64,000 nucleotides of DNA, from the NCBI GenBank assembly GCA_002698985.1, contig PAAY01000039.1, positions 1 to 64,000 on the forward strand, read 5' to 3'. The notes under the pieces are model-generated. The model saw only the letters and a program-made list of their open reading frames with translations. It was not told the DNA's origin and searched no databases. Below are positions 16,200-27,682 of the stretch, piece by piece; positions within the stretch are counted from its first letter, which is position 1, and every line of letters begins with the position of its first letter. The stretch is from Saprospirales bacterium. GTDB lineage: Bacteria > Bacteroidota > Bacteroidia > Chitinophagales > Saprospiraceae. The position numbers and the translations under genes are program-made.

Positions 16200-19100
16200 T
16201 TACCTGAGTATAACCAGCTTTTCAAAGTCGCTTTCACCTTCGATGGCTTCATCACTGGCATTGGTTCTGACTTTCACTTTGTAGAGATAAACTCCCTTTG
16301 CCAGCGGGTCTCCGTAGTCGTCTCGGCCATCCCAGGGAATGCAATTATCGGTGCCTAAACGGTAGCCATCGGGAATTATTCTTTGCTGCAAAGTTTTTAT
16401 CAGGCGGCCTGATACGGTATAGATCTGCACCATCACATCCAACTCAGCACCAGACAAATTGTGCTCAAACATGAAGCAAGTCGAACTTGTAAAAGGGTTT
16501 GGATAATTCAGCACATGGTCAAGTGCAGCAACGGCATTGGAAGCCACCACAAATTCGGTATAGCCTTCAGCCGGATTGTTGGCCACATCCCAGGCGCTCA
16601 CTTTTATCTGGTGTCGGCCTTCGGCCAAACTGCTGAGCGGAAAGCGGGCCTCACCGCTGGTGTAATCATCCAATGAAGCTTCGTAAAAATCATTCAGGAT
16701 GTGGGTATTCTTTGAATCGTCATCCAAAATGGCGGCAAGGTCGTGGCCGATACTGTTACCGGCAACGTTGATGCCATTATCGTCTTTGAGCTTAACAAGC
16801 AGGGTAGGATTTTCGTCAGTGATGCCGCCGAAGACGAAATTTTCATCGTTCATAAACACCTGCACCTGCGGCCCCTGATTGTCAGCCAGTGCATTGGGGT
16901 CAGTGCCGCCCACGAAGATATCGCGGTAATTGCCGGCAGCATCAACCAGGTCAGCCTCATCGGCTGCATAGTAGCTGAACTTACTTTTACCGAAGGCATA
17001 ATTGATATCCTTCGGAACAACAAAGGTGTACTTGAACTTGCCATTGACGACGCTGGCCCGCCCTTTGAAAATGAGGTTTTTCTGAAGATCAAAATCGAAA
17101 TAAGGACTGCCCGGATCCTGTGACAGGGTGCGGTACATCACCTTTTTGTCATAAATGGTTGGGTATATCACACCGTTGAAGTCTTCAATCAGGTTTCCGT
17201 TATCATCCCTTATTTCCCCTTCTACAGTAACTTTCTGCAAAGCACGGATGGTGTCCAGTGCACCTGTGTTCATTTCCTGCTCGTCAATTTTAGTCATCAC
17301 AATATTGTGCATCGGCAATGCCATCTTCTGAGAGGGATCACCGAGGAGTGTATATTTCCGTGAGTTGGTATTGTCACTGGTTTTATTTTTCCCCAACCGA
17401 AGTGCTTCACCCAGTGCGGGCAATTCCCCTGAGATTTTATTGAACAAGGTGTCTAATGAAGCCTGGGTCAATCTTTTATTGGCACTCGCAAACACGGGTC
17501 TCACAGTAGTATATAGTGCAATAGCTCCTCCCTTGTCATGAAGGAAGGCCAGTTCACCGGCAGAAGTAAAAGCAGGATTGTCGTAGGCGGCAAAGGAACA
17601 AGTAGCAGTAACGATCAGTGGCAGTTTTTCAAAATTCTCCCAACTGAGTATATCTTCTATTTTGAGAACCCGCTCCTGCGCCCAGCCTTTGGTGCCACCA
17701 TGGCCCAGATATACCATAGCTGCCACACCTTTGAAAATATCATTGTTGATGGCTTCTGTTGCCAATGGCACCCTTGTTCCTCCCGGAGTGGACACTTGCT
17801 CAAAAGCATCAAGATAAATTTTGTCAATGTTAAGATTAGGGTACTTTGATTCCAACACTTTGGTTATTGCATTTCCATCACGAACGTGAAGGTTATTGTC
17901 TTCATCGTCACAAACAAAAGCTATGCGGTTGCGCCAGTCTTTGAGGGTGATGGGCTGTGAATCGTAGTGGATAATTTTATCCACCACCCCATTGGCCTCC
18001 TCCAGTGTATTCACTGGCAGCCGCCCTACGGCAATGTCCAATGCTCCGAAACTGATACTCCCGCCCTCGTTGTCATCGAGCAGGGCGTAAAAGTCATCAG
18101 AGGGATAGGAATAAATGGGGCTGGTTGAGTTGGCCGTTTCCCAGACGGGGATGTAATCACCTGCCAGTTTGTAAATGTCTCTGGCATCGAAAGAACCATC
18201 GCCAAAGAGCAGCAAGTACCTGAATTGTTCCGGTGCCCTTTCATAGAGCATCTTCGCAAAATCCCGAATGGCTGCGGGGTCCTTCCGGCCGGAGGAAAAT
18301 TCGTTGTACAATTGTTCAACGTCCACCATCGCCACATCCAGTCCGCTGAAATTGATTCGGTGGTCCGCCAATCTCTGGGCTGCCTCCAAAAATTTGGAAT
18401 GGTACAGTATGACCAGATCGGCAGAGGTGATGCCGTGGATGTTCTGATTGGGTATGGCGCCGACGGCCTCCGGTGTGAGGAAGCCGGCATTGTCGTTGAA
18501 TGCGATAAACTCAGCCAGTTCATTGGTATTTGCAACGAAAGAGAACACATCGCCGGTGAGGCTTCCCAACTGGTTTGCCGGCACCTGCGGATTGGTAATG
18601 TTCCAAACCCTGGTCCTTGCACTGGCACCACTGAGGTTAAATTCCGTGGCATTGTAACCAATGGAATACAGATCACGAAAGCGCATCTGATCCTCAGTCA
18701 GGTTCAGCTTTCTCCGGAAATTGACTTCGATGTAATCGAGCCAGCCTTCGTTAAAGCTGTTGGAAGGCCGAATGAACTCAAGTTCGATATTGAAATTGTC
18801 AGTTCCGGGGGTGAATTCGCCCTGCACACTCAACGCACTTGCGAAAAGGTCAATTGAGCCGCCGCCTGTTGAAGAAAAAGTATTGCTGGTAAATACAGTA
18901 CCATTTGCCGTTACGCTGAACCGGCCGGTTTGCCCACTCTGGATTCTACCCGCAAATACTGCCTTCAGATAGGCTGGCGCCGTGCCCACTAAATCGGGGA
19001 CGAGAAATTCCTCATCGTAAGATTTTGATTCCGTCACTTTGAAATAATCTCCAAACCACTGCTTTCCGGAACCTTCGCCGTAAGACCAGTCGTGCATAAT

Positions 19101-20060
19101 GTTTCGCTCGTCCTTTTCATACCGAAGGAAGTCGTTGAACTCAGAAGTGCTGTGATCGGAATTCTGAAGAGAAGCCACATCCTGCACACGCAGGCCGGTG
19201 CCACTGCCAATTTTCAAGAAGTAGTAATTGCGGTCGTCGTAAATGTTTTTGGGAACGGAAAAGGTCTGTGTGGTTTCGTCGTAATAATGTTTGTCGGGTC
19301 CTTCTGCATACATTAGTATGTAGTCACCGCTATTGAAACTGCCGTCATCTTCGCCTATTACCTGTATGGCGTTCTCAATCAGGTCATCCGGTCTTTCCAC
19401 GCTGTTAGCCTCCGGCAACATTCCACCGCCATTGCCATAGATCCGTATGGCCCGGGGGTCAATGCTCTCTACCGGCACACCCAACTGGTTTTTCAGAAAA
19501 TCGAAATCCAGTTTGTACATGCCGGTTTCAGCCACTGCAAATTTGAAAATCTGCCCATCCATGAGCACAGATTCGGTTGTGTGGCCATTGCGCACCTTGA
19601 GTGGCTCAGGCTGGGGCTCAAAATTTAACCGAAGGGAAAAAGAGGTAAGTTTCTCAACTTGCCCGCCGCCCGTTTTCCGAAGGGGAACAAAATAAATGCG
19701 GGCGTAGTATTCCGAGCGTTCTTTCTCAACCACAACCCTGACCTGAACCTGCTCGGTAAGGAATGGTGAATCTTCGAGAAAAGCTGCATCCAGGTTTTCG
19801 TACTTCGCACTGGTAAAAACCGCAGATACTTTCCCGAACTGATCGAGCAGGAAGCGCTCTGAGAAAACCGGCAAACTTCCAAATTCGTCCAGGTAAACAG
19901 CATCCTCAAAACGGATCAGTTCAACGGGCTCACTGTCCTCGGCCATCTGGATGGTGAGGGGTTCTTCCCATGCCAGGGTTTTGCTAAAGCTTGTCGGTAA
20001 TTTTGCAAAAACGCTGTTTAGTGCGAGCAGGCAGGCGGCTACCGTAAAAAGATTCTTCAT
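16200..20060 (-). CDS. porU: Type IX secretion system sortase PorU (C25-like)
   Basis: Large secreted C25-like protein (VYLGHGGTKGWAQERVL, LIVTATCSFAAYDNP, LLGDPSQKMALP) next to porV. Start placed at MKNLFTVAACLLALNSVFA. Confidence 0.92.
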   Translation of the reverse strand: MKNLFTVAACLLALNSVFAKLPTSFSKTLAWEEPLTIQMAEDSEPVELIRFEDAVYLDEFGSLPVFSERFLLDQFGKVSAVFTSAKYENLDAAFLEDSPFLTEQVQVRVVVEKERSEYYARIYFVPLRKTGGGQVEKLTSFSLRLNFEPQPEPLKVRNGHTTESVLMDGQIFKFAVAETGMYKLDFDFLKNQLGVPVESIDPRAIRIYGNGGGMLPEANSVERPDDLIENAIQVIGEDDGSFNSGDYILMYAEGPDKHYYDETTQTFSVPKNIYDDRNYYFLKIGSGTGLRVQDVASLQNSDHSTSEFNDFLRYEKDERNIMHDWSYGEGSGKQWFGDYFKVTESKSYDEEFLVPDLVGTAPAYLKAVFAGRIQSGQTGRFSVTANGTVFTSNTFSSTGGGSIDLFASALSVQGEFTPGTDNFNIELEFIRPSNSFNEGWLDYIEVNFRRKLNLTEDQMRFRDLYSIGYNATEFNLSGASARTRVWNITNPQVPANQLGSLTGDVFSFVANTNELAEFIAFNDNAGFLTPEAVGAIPNQNIHGITSADLVILYHSKFLEAAQRLADHRINFSGLDVAMVDVEQLYNEFSSGRKDPAAIRDFAKMLYERAPEQFRYLLLFGDGSFDARDIYKLAGDYIPVWETANSTSPIYSYPSDDFYALLDDNEGGSISFGALDIAVGRLPVNTLEEANGVVDKIIHYDSQPITLKDWRNRIAFVCDDEDNNLHVRDGNAITKVLESKYPNLNIDKIYLDAFEQVSTPGGTRVPLATEAINNDIFKGVAAMVYLGHGGTKGWAQERVLKIEDILSWENFEKLPLIVTATCSFAAYDNPAFTSAGELAFLHDKGGAIALYTTVRPVFASANKRLTQASLDTLFNKISGELPALGEALRLGKNKTSDNTNSRKYTLLGDPSQKMALPMHNIVMTKIDEQEMNTGALDTIRALQKVTVEGEIRDDNGNLIEDFNGVIYPTIYDKKVMYRTLSQDPGSPYFDFDLQKNLIFKGRASVVNGKFKYTFVVPKDINYAFGKSKFSYYAADEADLVDAAGNYRDIFVGGTDPNALADNQGPQVQVFMNDENFVFGGITDENPTLLVKLKDDNGINVAGNSIGHDLAAILDDDSKNTHILNDFYEASLDDYTSGEARFPLSSLAEGRHQIKVSAWDVANNPAEGYTEFVVASNAVAALDHVLNYPNPFTSSTCFMFEHNLSGAELDVMVQIYTVSGRLIKTLQQRIIPDGYRLGTDNCIPWDGRDDYGDPLAKGVYLYKVKVRTNASDEAIEGESDFEKLVILR

Positions 20061-20268
20061 AACTTGCAGTTTACACAATCTTTGGGTGAGGGTTCTACAG
20101 GTGTTCTCATCAAAATGCATTTCTTAGCACCTGCAATCTCGGACTCTCAAGAAACGTTGAGAAAGCACCTGTATGGCAATTTCCTCTTTTTTAACATGGT
20201 CGCAGAGCTTACAAAAGAGGCAAACAAAAATAAGCCTTTTGTTGCCCTGCACTCAATCCGGATGGTCA

Positions 20269-21312
20269 ATGCTGAGACAAATAACACTTATCTTCATTTT
20301 GGCAGGCACATTGGGTGCCAGTTTGCTGGCACAAGATCCGGTGTTCACGCAGTTCAATGCCACGCCATTAGCCATCAACCCGGCTTTTGCCGGCACCACC
20401 CTTGCTCCCAGATTTGCAGCCAGCTACCGCAATGAATGGCCCTCCCACTCTGATGCCGGGGTCACCGCTTATGCCACCTACGCCGCTTCTTACGACCAGT
20501 TTTTCACACCCTTCAACAGCGGCTTTGGCCTAATGGTAATGACGGACGATGCCGGAGGCGGATTGCTGAAAACGTCCATGGTGAATGCAGCATATGCTTA
20601 CCAGGTCAGCGTCAGCAATGATTTTGGGATGAAGTTGGGCATACAGGCTGGCTTCCGGCAACTGCGGCTTGATTGGGACCGACTCATCTTCCTCGACCAA
20701 CTTGATCCCCTCACCGGACCTTTGGATCCTTCGGGAAACCCAAACCCTACCAACGAGATACCACCAGAATCTTTGACGAAGACCCACTTCGATGTGGGGG
20801 CCGGCCTGCTGGTTTACACACCCGCGTTCTACGGTGGCATAGCACTGCACCACCTGACCACTCCTTCGGAAGGATTCATCCGTTCCGGAACGGGATTGGA
20901 AGAGGGGCTGCCTCTGCGATTGACCCTCCAGGCCGGTGCTGAACTCACACTTCTGCCGGGCAATAACAGGATACCGTCAACGTTTATCGCACCGGCCATC
21001 CTCTTTGTAAAGCAGGGAGACCAGGGGCAGGTGAACGTCGGCACCCATTTGAGCAGAGGGCCGCTTGCAGTGGGAGGATTTTACCGCCATGCTTTCACCA
21101 ATTCTGACGCCCTCATCGGAACCGTCAGTTTCCAATACGAAGTGTTCAAAATCGGGTACAGCTATGATTTTACGGTGGCCAGCGGATTGGAAGTGCCTGA
21201 TTCCGGTGGCTCTCACGAAATTTCGCTTTTGATCAATCTCGACAACAGCGAAACTCAGCGTAGAAAGCGCTATGCTGAACGCTACAACGACTGTTTCAAA
21301 ATTTTTCGCTGA
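20269..21312 (+). CDS. PorP/SprF family type IX secretion membrane protein
   Basis: QDPVFTQFNATPLAINPAFAGTTLAPRFAASYRNEWPS is the PorP/SprF N-terminal signature. Start placed at MLRQITLIFILAG. Confidence 0.92.
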   Translation: MLRQITLIFILAGTLGASLLAQDPVFTQFNATPLAINPAFAGTTLAPRFAASYRNEWPSHSDAGVTAYATYAASYDQFFTPFNSGFGLMVMTDDAGGGLLKTSMVNAAYAYQVSVSNDFGMKLGIQAGFRQLRLDWDRLIFLDQLDPLTGPLDPSGNPNPTNEIPPESLTKTHFDVGAGLLVYTPAFYGGIALHHLTTPSEGFIRSGTGLEEGLPLRLTLQAGAELTLLPGNNRIPSTFIAPAILFVKQGDQGQVNVGTHLSRGPLAVGGFYRHAFTNSDALIGTVSFQYEVFKIGYSYDFTVASGLEVPDSGGSHEISLLINLDNSETQRRKRYAERYNDCFKIFR

Positions 21313-21383
21313 TAAATTTGCAATCCCGAAAAATAAAAAGTGGAAAATAGACGTCAGGCAGGTGTTAAAAACCACCCTGCACG

Positions 21384-21412
21384 TTGTTTAGAAATCTACT
21401 TTCCTATATTTG
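21384..21412 (+). promoter_or_regulatory. Bacteroidota-type promoter of gldJ
   Basis: TTG (21384-21386), 18 nt, TATATTTG (21405-21412), matching TTG-N19-TAnnTTTG. Confidence 0.7.
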
Positions 21413-21451
21413 CGGGTCTATAATTCATCGTATAAACTCTTTTTTAAAGTG

Positions 21452-22957
21452 ATGAGAAATTTGTTGAAGTTAAATTCGCTTTTCATCCTCGCCATCATGC
21501 TGATTTTGAGCGCCTGCAGCAAGAAAGAGCGCTCGGCAACCACTGGTTGGCAATACAATGACGCTGACTGGGGCGGATTCGAAAAAACCGATTATGAAGG
21601 ACAGGTGACCGGTCCTAACCTCGTGTTGGTTGAAGGTGGTACCTTCACCATGGGTCTGACCGATCAGGACGTGATGTTTGAATGGAATGCCGTACCCCGC
21701 AGGGTTACCGTAGGTTCATTCTACATGGACGAAACAGAAGTTTCAAACATTGACTACCGGGAATACCTCTACTGGTTGAAACGCGTATTCGGTGAATCAT
21801 ATCCCGAGGTGTACCTCAATGCACTTCCGGACACCTTGGTTTGGCGTGAAGAACTTGCCTATAACGAACCACTGGTAGAAACCTACTTCCGCTACCCTTC
21901 CTATGACAACTACCCTGTGGTAGGTGTCAACTGGCTCCAGGCCAACGACTACGCCAAATGGCGTACCGACAGGGTGAATGAGATGATTCTCATAGAGCGC
22001 GGTATTCTGAACCCCAATCCCGAACAAAAAGACGAAGACAACTTCAACACGGAAGCATATCTGGCAGGACAATACCAAGGTAGTGTCCGCAAGAACATGA
22101 AAGACATCCGCACCGGCGGTGAAAGGCCAGTCAGGTTTGAGGATGGCATCATGCTTCCGGAATACCGCCTGCCAACTGAGGCCGAGTGGGAATACGCTGC
22201 CGTCGGACTGCGCGGCAACATGGTTTCGGAAAAAGACGAGCGGATCTCTGACCGCCGTATCTATCCCTGGAACGGAAACACCGTTCGCTACCAGAAGCGT
22301 GACAAATACCAGGGTAAGATCCTCGCCAACTTCAAGCGTGGAAAAGGTGACTACATGGGTATGGCCGGCAACCTCAATGATGCCGCACCGTTCCCGGGTC
22401 CGGTTCGCCAATACTTCCCCAACGATTACGGCCTCTACAACATGGCCGGTAACGTAAACGAATGGACCATGGACCTCTACCGTCCAATGACCAGCGTTAC
22501 AATCAGGGATGTTGAACAGCAGGACCTGAACCCATTCCGTGGTAATAAATTCAAAACCAAAGTACTCGATGAAGACGGCAAGCCGGTTGAAAAAGACAGC
22601 CTCGGCCGCCTGCGCTACCGCTATGTTGAGGACGACGAAGTGGCCACCCGTGAAAACTACAAAGTAGGTCAGCCATACAACTACCTCGACGGTGACAAGC
22701 AGTCTGAAGCTTTCTATGATTACGGTAAGCACACCCTCATCAGCGACAAGGCTCGCGTGATCAAAGGTGGTTCATGGGCAGACCGTGCCTACTGGCTCAG
22801 CCCGGGTGCAAGGCGCTTCCGTGACGAAGACAAAGCCTACCGTGACCTTGGTTTCCGCTGCGCCATGACCCGCACCGGTGGACCAACCGGTAACGAAGAC
22901 GCTGCCGGCATTACCTTCAAAACGAAGCAGAACAAAGTGAAGCGTCGCTACAAGTAA
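21452..22957 (+). CDS. gldJ: Gliding motility lipoprotein GldJ (SUMF1/FGE-like)
   Basis: Lipobox ILSAC; LVLVEGGTFTMG, YRLPTEAEWEYAA, YNMAGNVNEWTMD, VIKGGSWADR; downstream of porU/porV and upstream of murF. Start after the promoter. Confidence 0.88.
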   Translation: MRNLLKLNSLFILAIMLILSACSKKERSATTGWQYNDADWGGFEKTDYEGQVTGPNLVLVEGGTFTMGLTDQDVMFEWNAVPRRVTVGSFYMDETEVSNIDYREYLYWLKRVFGESYPEVYLNALPDTLVWREELAYNEPLVETYFRYPSYDNYPVVGVNWLQANDYAKWRTDRVNEMILIERGILNPNPEQKDEDNFNTEAYLAGQYQGSVRKNMKDIRTGGERPVRFEDGIMLPEYRLPTEAEWEYAAVGLRGNMVSEKDERISDRRIYPWNGNTVRYQKRDKYQGKILANFKRGKGDYMGMAGNLNDAAPFPGPVRQYFPNDYGLYNMAGNVNEWTMDLYRPMTSVTIRDVEQQDLNPFRGNKFKTKVLDEDGKPVEKDSLGRLRYRYVEDDEVATRENYKVGQPYNYLDGDKQSEAFYDYGKHTLISDKARVIKGGSWADRAYWLSPGARRFRDEDKAYRDLGFRCAMTRTGGPTGNEDAAGITFKTKQNKVKRRYK

Positions 22958-25565: not shown

Positions 25566-25636
25566 GAAAATGAGACAAGCAGTTCAAAAGCAGAAGAGGG
25601 AGCCATGATCGTTCACAGCTCCCTCTTTCTTTTGCG

Positions 25637-25741
25637 TTAATACGTGGAATTTCTCTTTAGCTTCTCTGAGACCCAGTTGGTGAGGGTGATGATACCGCCA
25701 CCAATAAGAAAAGCACCTAATGCAAGTTGGAGGATCAGCAT
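25637..25741 (-). CDS. Small single-TM protein A (34 aa): MLILQLALGAFLIGGGIITLTNWVSEKLKRNSTY
   Basis: Read from the minus strand; hydrophobic N-terminus and basic C-terminus; paralogous to 26235-26336. Below the ORF track length cutoff. Confidence 0.7.
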   Translation of the reverse strand: MLILQLALGAFLIGGGIITLTNWVSEKLKRNSTY

Positions 25742-26234
25742 AACTTAAACCGTTTTTGAGTGTGATAAATCTGGTTTTGAGCATGTGCCTGAATGACTAA
25801 GGTGAGGTCTGCAAAGGGTGGGTTGTTCAGAGAAATCGCACTTTTCTATCCCGTGCTGACCAAAACCCCACCTGCAAGCAGGCAGCAATTCGTTTTGGAC
25901 AAAAACACGGGATTGAAAAAGTGTTCTGATAGTGCGAGGAAAGCAGTTTAGAGAATTGCGAAGCGAACTTAATTGATGATAAATCAATGTACGTAAGGCA
26001 TTCGTAATTAGCCTGTGAAACTGCTAATCCAGGTAAGACAATTACCTTGCCAATTGAGTGTTGACAATAATACGATAAGACCTTTTTAAAATTTGGTGTG
26101 CAGGCTTACTGACAGTACAAGGGAAGGGTGGTGCTTGCACCGGCAGGTGCAAACGAAACATCTTTAAAATGGAGTAGATAAACGGATAACATAGGATATG
26201 TTGTGATGGGGTAAAATCGGGCTGAGAGCGCCTG

Positions 26235-26336
26235 TCAGTACCACATCCGGTTGTTTCGTTCTGGCATGTAGTTAGACACCAAAACAATCAAGCCCCCGAG
26301 AATGAATGCAGCAGTTGCGATGTAAAAGATCAACAT
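26235..26336 (-). CDS. Small single-TM protein B (33 aa): MLIFYIATAAFILGGLIVLVSNYMPERNNRMWY
   Basis: Aligns over its full length with protein A, with the same start, TM and charged tail layout. Confidence 0.7.
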   Translation of the reverse strand: MLIFYIATAAFILGGLIVLVSNYMPERNNRMWY

Positions 26337-26542
26337 GGTCCGATAGTTTTTGAGTTAATAGCAAGTATGTAGCCTCCGTACCTGGCTTTTCAGGGCAAAA
26401 GCGGACGATGTTCAATGGGATGCGACCGGAAAGCAAGGGAGAATGCCGGTTGCTGACTGTAAAAATTTGGAATTGTACGTGGGGATGGGATATGTTCTCT
26501 CGCAGGGCTGCTAAGATGAAAAAACTTTTTTTGTTTCAAAAA

Positions 26543-27682
26543 TTATTTGGGAGAATTTTCGCTTTTGACACTTTTCAGCTCTCCGGATGAGGCCTTATGC
26601 CCGGGATCCATTGGCCGGTTCATGACCTCTCCCTGGTGTTGGATGCTCTCCTGGTGCACCGCATCGATCACTGCCGACAAGAACTCTTTGGCGAGATTCA
26701 GCGAAGTTCCTTTGCTTAAAATCCGTTCACGAATCCGGCTCCATCGTTCCGGCTGATAGATGGATATGTTTCGGTTGCGCTTGTGGATGCCAATCTGCTC
26801 AGCCAGCTTCATCCGCTCGCTGAAAAGCTGAAACACCTCATCATCGATCTCGTCGATTTGCCGGCGTATGTGGTCCAGTTCCCGCCAAAACAAACTGTCC
26901 TCTGTGCCGGGCGCCCTTACCACCAATGAACGGACCATTTGGTCGTATTCTACAGGCGTTATTTGTTGCCGGCTGTCGGAAAGGGCAGCCGGAGGATTTG
27001 GGTGCACTTCGGTCATCAGCCCATCGTAATTCAGGTCCAGCGCCCGCTGGGCCGTTTGCTGCAACAGCACGGGGATGCCGCAGATGTGGCTGTGATCGCA
27101 GATCAGTTGCAGGTCGGGAAACTGCCGCTTCAGCTCGATGGGGATTTGCCAGTAGGGGATGTTGCGATAGCGCTTTTCACCGTATTTATAAAAGCCCCTG
27201 TGTACGGCGGCAATTCGCCTCACACCTGCTTTGTAAATGCGTTCGATGGCTCCGATCCAAAGCTGGATGTCGGCATTGAGCGGATTTTTCACCATCACCG
27301 GCACATCAACACCTTGCAGCGCATCGGCAATTTCCTGAACGGAAAAGGGGTTGACGGTCGTTCTGGCTCCCAGCCACAAGACATCGATGCCATGTTCCAA
27401 AACGGCATCAACGTGCTTTCCCTTCGCAACCTCGGTGGTCACGGGCAGCTGCACTTCCTCTCTGACCCGCTTCAGCCAACCGAGCCCCTCATACCCTACC
27501 CCTTCAAAACTGTTGGGCCGGGTGCGGGGCTTCCAGATGCCGGCCCTGAACAGGTGTATGCCAACGGTTTTCAGGGCTTTGGCCACCTCCAAAACCTGTG
27601 CTTCCGACTCAGCACTGCAAGGGCCTGCTACCAGCAAAGGCCTTTGTTGTGTTTCAAATACGGGTTCAAAAGTCATCAGCAT
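26543..27682 (-). CDS. Bifunctional 3-deoxy-7-phosphoheptulonate synthase / chorismate mutase
   Basis: LLVAGPCSAESEAQVLEVA, FRAGIWKPRTRPNSFEGVG, IAAVHRGF, ICDHSHICG, then the C-terminal AroQ-type ELDHIRRQIDEIDDEVFQLFSERMKLAEQIG. Confidence 0.95.
   Translation of the reverse strand: MLMTFEPVFETQQRPLLVAGPCSAESEAQVLEVAKALKTVGIHLFRAGIWKPRTRPNSFEGVGYEGLGWLKRVREEVQLPVTTEVAKGKHVDAVLEHGIDVLWLGARTTVNPFSVQEIADALQGVDVPVMVKNPLNADIQLWIGAIERIYKAGVRRIAAVHRGFYKYGEKRYRNIPYWQIPIELKRQFPDLQLICDHSHICGIPVLLQQTAQRALDLNYDGLMTEVHPNPPAALSDSRQQITPVEYDQMVRSLVVRAPGTEDSLFWRELDHIRRQIDEIDDEVFQLFSERMKLAEQIGIHKRNRNISIYQPERWSRIRERILSKGTSLNLAKEFLSAVIDAVHQESIQHQGEVMNRPMDPGHKASSGELKSVKSENSPK

Follow-up and report, generated by a model that had tools for sequence, protein, structure and literature searches.

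The window analysed here, the whole 64-kb stretch of DNA from a Saprospirales bacterium, contains an intergenic region in which two very short open reading frames, A and B, lie on the minus strand (Table 1), and the question is whether they encode proteins and, if so, what these proteins might do. Both frames were found exactly where a preliminary description of the locus had placed them and with the same sequences, and the paralogy that it had proposed is evident from 40% identity over 30 residues; within the source genome A and B are each other's sole credible relatives. When each ORF was used as a query against 41 genomes, a single clear orthologue of each was identified in all 13 congeners (that of A in G013 is truncated at the end of a contig). 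Substitutions indicate purifying selection, with a median dN/dS of about 0.07 for A and about 0.17 for B. When the window genome is compared with its sister G003, all six changed codons of A and 14 of the 15 changed codons of B are silent, and both reading frames are intact in close relatives. The orthologues, the synonymous-biased change and the intact frames bear out the earlier view of A and B as real single-transmembrane micro-proteins, and from such comparisons it is near certain that they are genuine protein-coding paralogues. Family libraries miss both proteins; searches of Pfam, NCBIfam and PDB gave no significant match.

Table 1. Features of the micro-protein locus, in coordinates of the window
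Feature	Position	Strand	Remarks
Micro-protein A	25637..25741	-	34 aa, MLILQLALGAFLIGGGIITLTNWVSEKLKRNSTY; orthologues and dN/dS
Micro-protein B	26235..26336	-	33 aa, MLIFYIATAAFILGGLIVLVSNYMPERNNRMWY; orthologues and dN/dS
Terminator-like hairpin after A	25594..25627	-	Also at the convergent end of the M20 gene
Translation-initiation leader of A	25742..25761	-	Contains ACTCAAAAAC; kept in A orthologues
Structured core of the A leader	25846..25914	-	P1 ATCCCGTG/CACGGGAT; inner hairpin around CTGCCTGC-TT-GCAGGTGG
Leader helix P0, 3' arm (predicted)	25942..25949	-	AAACTGCT
Leader helix P0, 5' arm (predicted)	26018..26025	-	AGCAGTTT
Sigma-54-like -24/-12 promoter of A	26038..26053	-	TTGGCAAGGTAATTGT; predicted start ~26026
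ACTCAAAAAC before B	26346..26355	-	Beyond the sister genome only A-richness remains in B orthologues
GAACAT block downstream of the B box	26487..26501	-	GAGAGAACATATCCC
B box, -7-like promoter box	26510..26518	-	CATCTTAGC; part of the CANNTTAGC element
TTTTTG-containing stretch	26533..26542	-	Candidate -33 element of B

A combined profile detected members of the family (E < 1e-3) in 86 of 199 Saprospiraceae genomes, as counted from the listing, and also in named records, cultured Phaeodactylibacter included; the loci of P. xiamenensis and P. luteus (L121 and L128) carry a B-type gene. Every credible match of an order-wide search of 299 genomes falls in Saprospiraceae, and a phylum-wide search of 395 genomes revealed no convincing homologue beyond this group; most of the genomes are metagenome assemblies, so these absences are weak evidence. 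A and B represent, judging by these searches, a hitherto unnamed micro-protein family specific to Saprospiraceae, which adds a well-supported protein family, missed by profile libraries, to a large environmental bacterial family on which little molecular work has been done. The order B then A, on the same strand and a few hundred bases apart, is found in the window genome, G002 and G003, as well as in seven other genera (g43, g45, g48, g54, g62, g72 and g107), eight in total. In 11 of the 12 two-copy genomes compared, among which G044 carries its copies on separate contigs, profile scores place the second copy relatively closer to A than the first.

The preliminary description had also reported the 10-mer ACTCAAAAAC on the minus strand at 25752-25761 and 26346-26355, 10 and 9 nt before the ATGs of A and B, and both positions and spacings are correct; just two occurrences are present in the window, compared with 0.25 expected by chance. 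The further claim, that this is a conserved 5' element common to the two genes, had to be abandoned. The exact 10-mer is absent from B copies beyond the two sister genomes, and the 5' elements that are truly conserved differ between the genes. In A orthologues the leader motif REINTERPRETED is part of a longer conserved stretch, about CATCTCRAAAACGRTTTARGCTATG, before the ATG. The resemblance between A and B is explained by an adenine enrichment around positions -14 to -11 relative to the translation starts of Bacteroidota (PMC6847099): ACTCAAAAAC is the A-rich pre-start stretch usual in this phylum, and its interpretation as an ancestral shared element was rejected because it is missing from the other B orthologues. 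The same 10-mer at two further loci (L130 and L131) probably has the same cause.

Upstream of B-type genes there is a T-rich stretch, then CANNTTAGC, followed shortly by the GAACAT block, and this arrangement also precedes single-copy members of the family in genera with different neighbours. In 11 of 16 genomes, including G059, which was not used to build it, a sequence model of the B element gave a single strong site, located at the gene; the remaining five had weak matches only, and no second strong site that could mark a regulon was found in the 16 genomes. The promoter consensus of Bacteroidota sigma-ABfr is TAHHTTTG (PMC6847099, PMC7366714). The B box CANNTTAGC agrees with it in the A, the TT and the G, and in many copies a TTG is located approximately 18-20 nt upstream of the box, but throughout the family the box has C rather than T at -12 and A rather than T at -6. 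Because of this consistent departure, B may be read by another sigma factor, and the designation of B as 'basal' is a guess, since two near-invariant positions of the primary-sigma -7 consensus are not matched by the box. Sequestration of the start codon by the conserved GAACAT of the B/C leaders was considered and, on inspection, rejected, as the block does not follow the change of the start from ATGTT to ATGCT.

The A-type genes are without the B-type element. A close match to TTGGCAAGGTAATTGT is located 270-400 nt upstream of A in 12 of the 13 genomes scanned, agreeing at 14-16 of 16 positions against at most 13 in shuffled sequences, and in G010 the match is at -649. Exactly one perfect copy of TTGGCAAGRTAATTG per genome was found in 14 of 14 whole genomes, always before A, with no other exact copy of the A promoter motif in any of them. 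Upstream of the A-position copies of g43, g45, g54, g62, g72 and g107, and of a separate A-like copy in g32, there are sites of identical layout; in g48 the pair is in tandem as well, but the sigma-54-like site is missing. The spacing is constant, GG-N10-GT in the window and with GC in some copies, and it agrees with the pattern expected of a sigma-54-dependent promoter, TGG at -26/-24 and TTG[C] at -15/-12 with GG-N10-G[C] spacing. Compared with the sigma-54 consensus TGGCAC-N5-7-TTGCT (PMC12316311), the A promoter has GG at -25/-24, G at -13 and the correct spacing, but differs in A for C at -21 and, often, T or A for C at -12, and its spacer, GTAA/ATAA, is itself conserved. The rpoN gene (PF04552) is present in all 14 genomes. 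We infer that the promoter of A is of the sigma-54 type, although the site of an alternative regulator is possible because of the deviations at -21 and usually at -12 and the conserved spacer. One-mismatch sites are few, some of them inside genes and some before reprolysin-like or TPR genes. Such sites lie upstream of reprolysin-like metallopeptidases in G002 and G009 (L209, L216) and upstream of a TPR protein in G011 and G006 (L221, L222), and these genes might be further sigma-54 targets.

From the predicted start to the ATG, the leader of A spans approximately 285 nt. In 11 genomes helix P0 starts 1-13 nt downstream of the predicted transcript end, and its pairing is kept despite sequence change, its arms having been picked by eye and the RNA arms beyond eight close genomes hand-chosen; a core of 70-87 nt comes after it. 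Across the eight congeners, five pairs of the inner hairpin P3 are changed on both sides. Cells changed on both sides number 10 in the core structure and 12 in the leader structure, compared with 4.4 and 4.5, respectively, in shuffles. P1 says little in these congeners, being nearly invariant there; it reads CCCGTG/CACGGG in the window versus CCCATGC/GCATGGG in others, and matching arms are present in g107. On the sense strand GU cells outnumber AC cells by 30 to 4, and this excess, to which some constant columns contribute, points to RNA rather than to a DNA palindrome. The core of the window has a z value of -5.25, none of 200 shuffles being as stable. A covariance model finds matches at A loci only; the cores of the window genome and G003 are too diverged for it, so their equivalence is judged from position and fold. 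No Rfam match was obtained at the locus, the A leader included, and this leader may represent a new structured RNA. In several congeners there is weak support for an alternative, terminator-like helix, P4, which is not favoured in the window. In G010 the leader is enlarged to about 620 nt (L045, 898-1547), and the stretch that separates the structured core from the ORF contains additional inverted repeats, which may be an inserted repeat element.

The proteins share the consensus MLILYIATGAFxxGGGxxxxSN, followed by a basic tail. Among 29 members no charge occurs in residues 2-8 and one charged residue in residues 2-21, and after residue 22 there are 83 K/R versus 6 D/E. The AlphaFold2 model is a single helix of residues 2-32 with a mean pLDDT of 89. 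Since there is no charge before the helix and the tail is basic, the positive-inside rule predicts that A and B each form a single N-out/C-in helix in the inner membrane, the tail facing the cytoplasm. One face of this helix, A..GAFxxGGG, is built of small residues (A7, A10, G14 and G15) and appears to be of the helix-packing kind, so that each protein may pair with itself or with a partner.

We infer the function of the family from these features and by comparison with known small proteins. The reading that we prefer, held tentatively and at slightly less than even confidence, is that the pair, one copy basal and the other inducible, modulates the inner membrane or one membrane partner under envelope or nutritional stress. 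The two 5' elements suggest constant expression of one copy and induction of the other by stress or a signal. B, expressed from its own -7-like promoter, would give a basal supply of the helix, to which A would be added under a condition sensed by some sigma-54 activator; given the proposed type of its promoter, A would need RpoN and an enhancer-binding activator. The folded leader may be a second layer of control setting the amount of A, and A and B, pairing with themselves or a partner via the glycine face, might then tune the inner membrane or one membrane partner. The nearest functional parallel is probably YohP, a small stress protein of Escherichia coli with 27 aa, which is mainly N-out/C-in, dimerises via a glycine motif, lowers the proton motive force and is raised under unfavourable conditions (PMC12719787). 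Like YohP, A and B are very short single helices, their N-out/C-in orientation and glycine pairing motif being predicted from charge and sequence, and A is predicted to be inducible. The comparison is one of analogy, and homology is not claimed: A and B, unlike YohP, are two paralogues with separate 5' elements, that of A being sigma-54-like and followed by a folded leader, and their family is restricted to Saprospiraceae. It is a good deal less probable that the locus is a lineage-specific two-gene module in which basal and sigma-54-inducible helices of 33 residues form mixed oligomers, their ratio setting a property of the inner membrane and an undescribed structured RNA leader further gating the inducible copy. 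The placing of one tiny helix under the control of two different promoters, one of them with a folded leader, would make inducible partner exchange directly testable among the smallest membrane proteins.

Two other roles rank below the YohP-like modulator. A and B could be isoforms of a small accessory subunit within a larger membrane complex, such as an oxidase, transporter or translocon, and be used as alternatives, B in normal growth and A being swapped in when its promoter is on. The strong conservation of the helix itself and the two paralogues with different promoters would fit such an exchange, and CydX, a small accessory subunit of cytochrome bd, is likewise a conserved single-transmembrane micro-protein of similar length. 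Such subunits are, however, usually encoded in the operon of their complex, whereas the A and B genes stand alone and their neighbours change between genera. A search for a partner gene by neighbourhood across genera found none that was consistent and none that pointed to function. A and B are separated in most congeners, where A adjoins a chorismate-binding (PabB-like) gene and B is near a DAHP synthase, AlkA or SDR gene (the latter two named by eye). In contrast to CydX, they have no enzyme operon, unrelated neighbours, no sequence match in Pfam or NCBIfam and no similarity to small subunits in PDB, which leaves the isoform reading rather unlikely.

In the window and in several relatives B adjoins a DAHP synthase fused to chorismate mutase (26543-27682). 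B ends in Trp-Tyr, and a role as an attenuator leader peptide was dropped because A has no Trp-Tyr, the helix is the conserved part and the neighbours in other genera are unrelated. In the genera of L116, L119, L121, L122, L124, L126-L128 and L133, the single-copy gene of the micro-protein family is located between lepA and a gene that resembles, by eye, an RskA-type anti-sigma factor.

Membrane-acting type I toxins, in which the peptide would depolarise the membrane and be silenced by an antisense RNA or the folded leader, are less probable still. Ldr, TisB, DinQ and TimP are hydrophobic peptides of 20-40 residues with a structured 5' mRNA and, in some cases, tandem copies. A and B resemble them in being hydrophobic peptides below approximately 60 aa with a single helix and a basic tail, in the long structured 5' leader of A, in the terminator-like hairpin of their own and in the tandem copies. 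The toxin-like activity mentioned in the preliminary description is in this sense possible, but it is disfavoured by the near-universal vertical retention in the genus: both genes are kept in every congener, with conserved synteny and a dN/dS of 0.07-0.17, and no copy of B was found on the phages and plasmids searched. Nor was a candidate antisense gene noticed in the course of these analyses.

It is very doubtful that the A leader itself, as a regulatory small RNA, is the main product of the locus and the ORF a minor or dual function; its helices covary and one copy is present per genome, but the constraint on the ORF exceeds that on the leader, which varies widely in length and sequence. Chance occurrence of the ORFs in an intergenic region, which their shortness and their absence from family libraries might suggest, is ruled out by the orthologues and the synonymous-biased dN/dS, and is contradicted by the conserved leaders and upstream elements as well.

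Elsewhere in the window, at 16200-22957, a C25 peptidase (PorU-like), a PorP/SprF protein and a protein with an FGE-sulfatase domain (GldJ/GldK-like) are grouped, so that genes of type IX secretion or gliding are located near the micro-protein locus.
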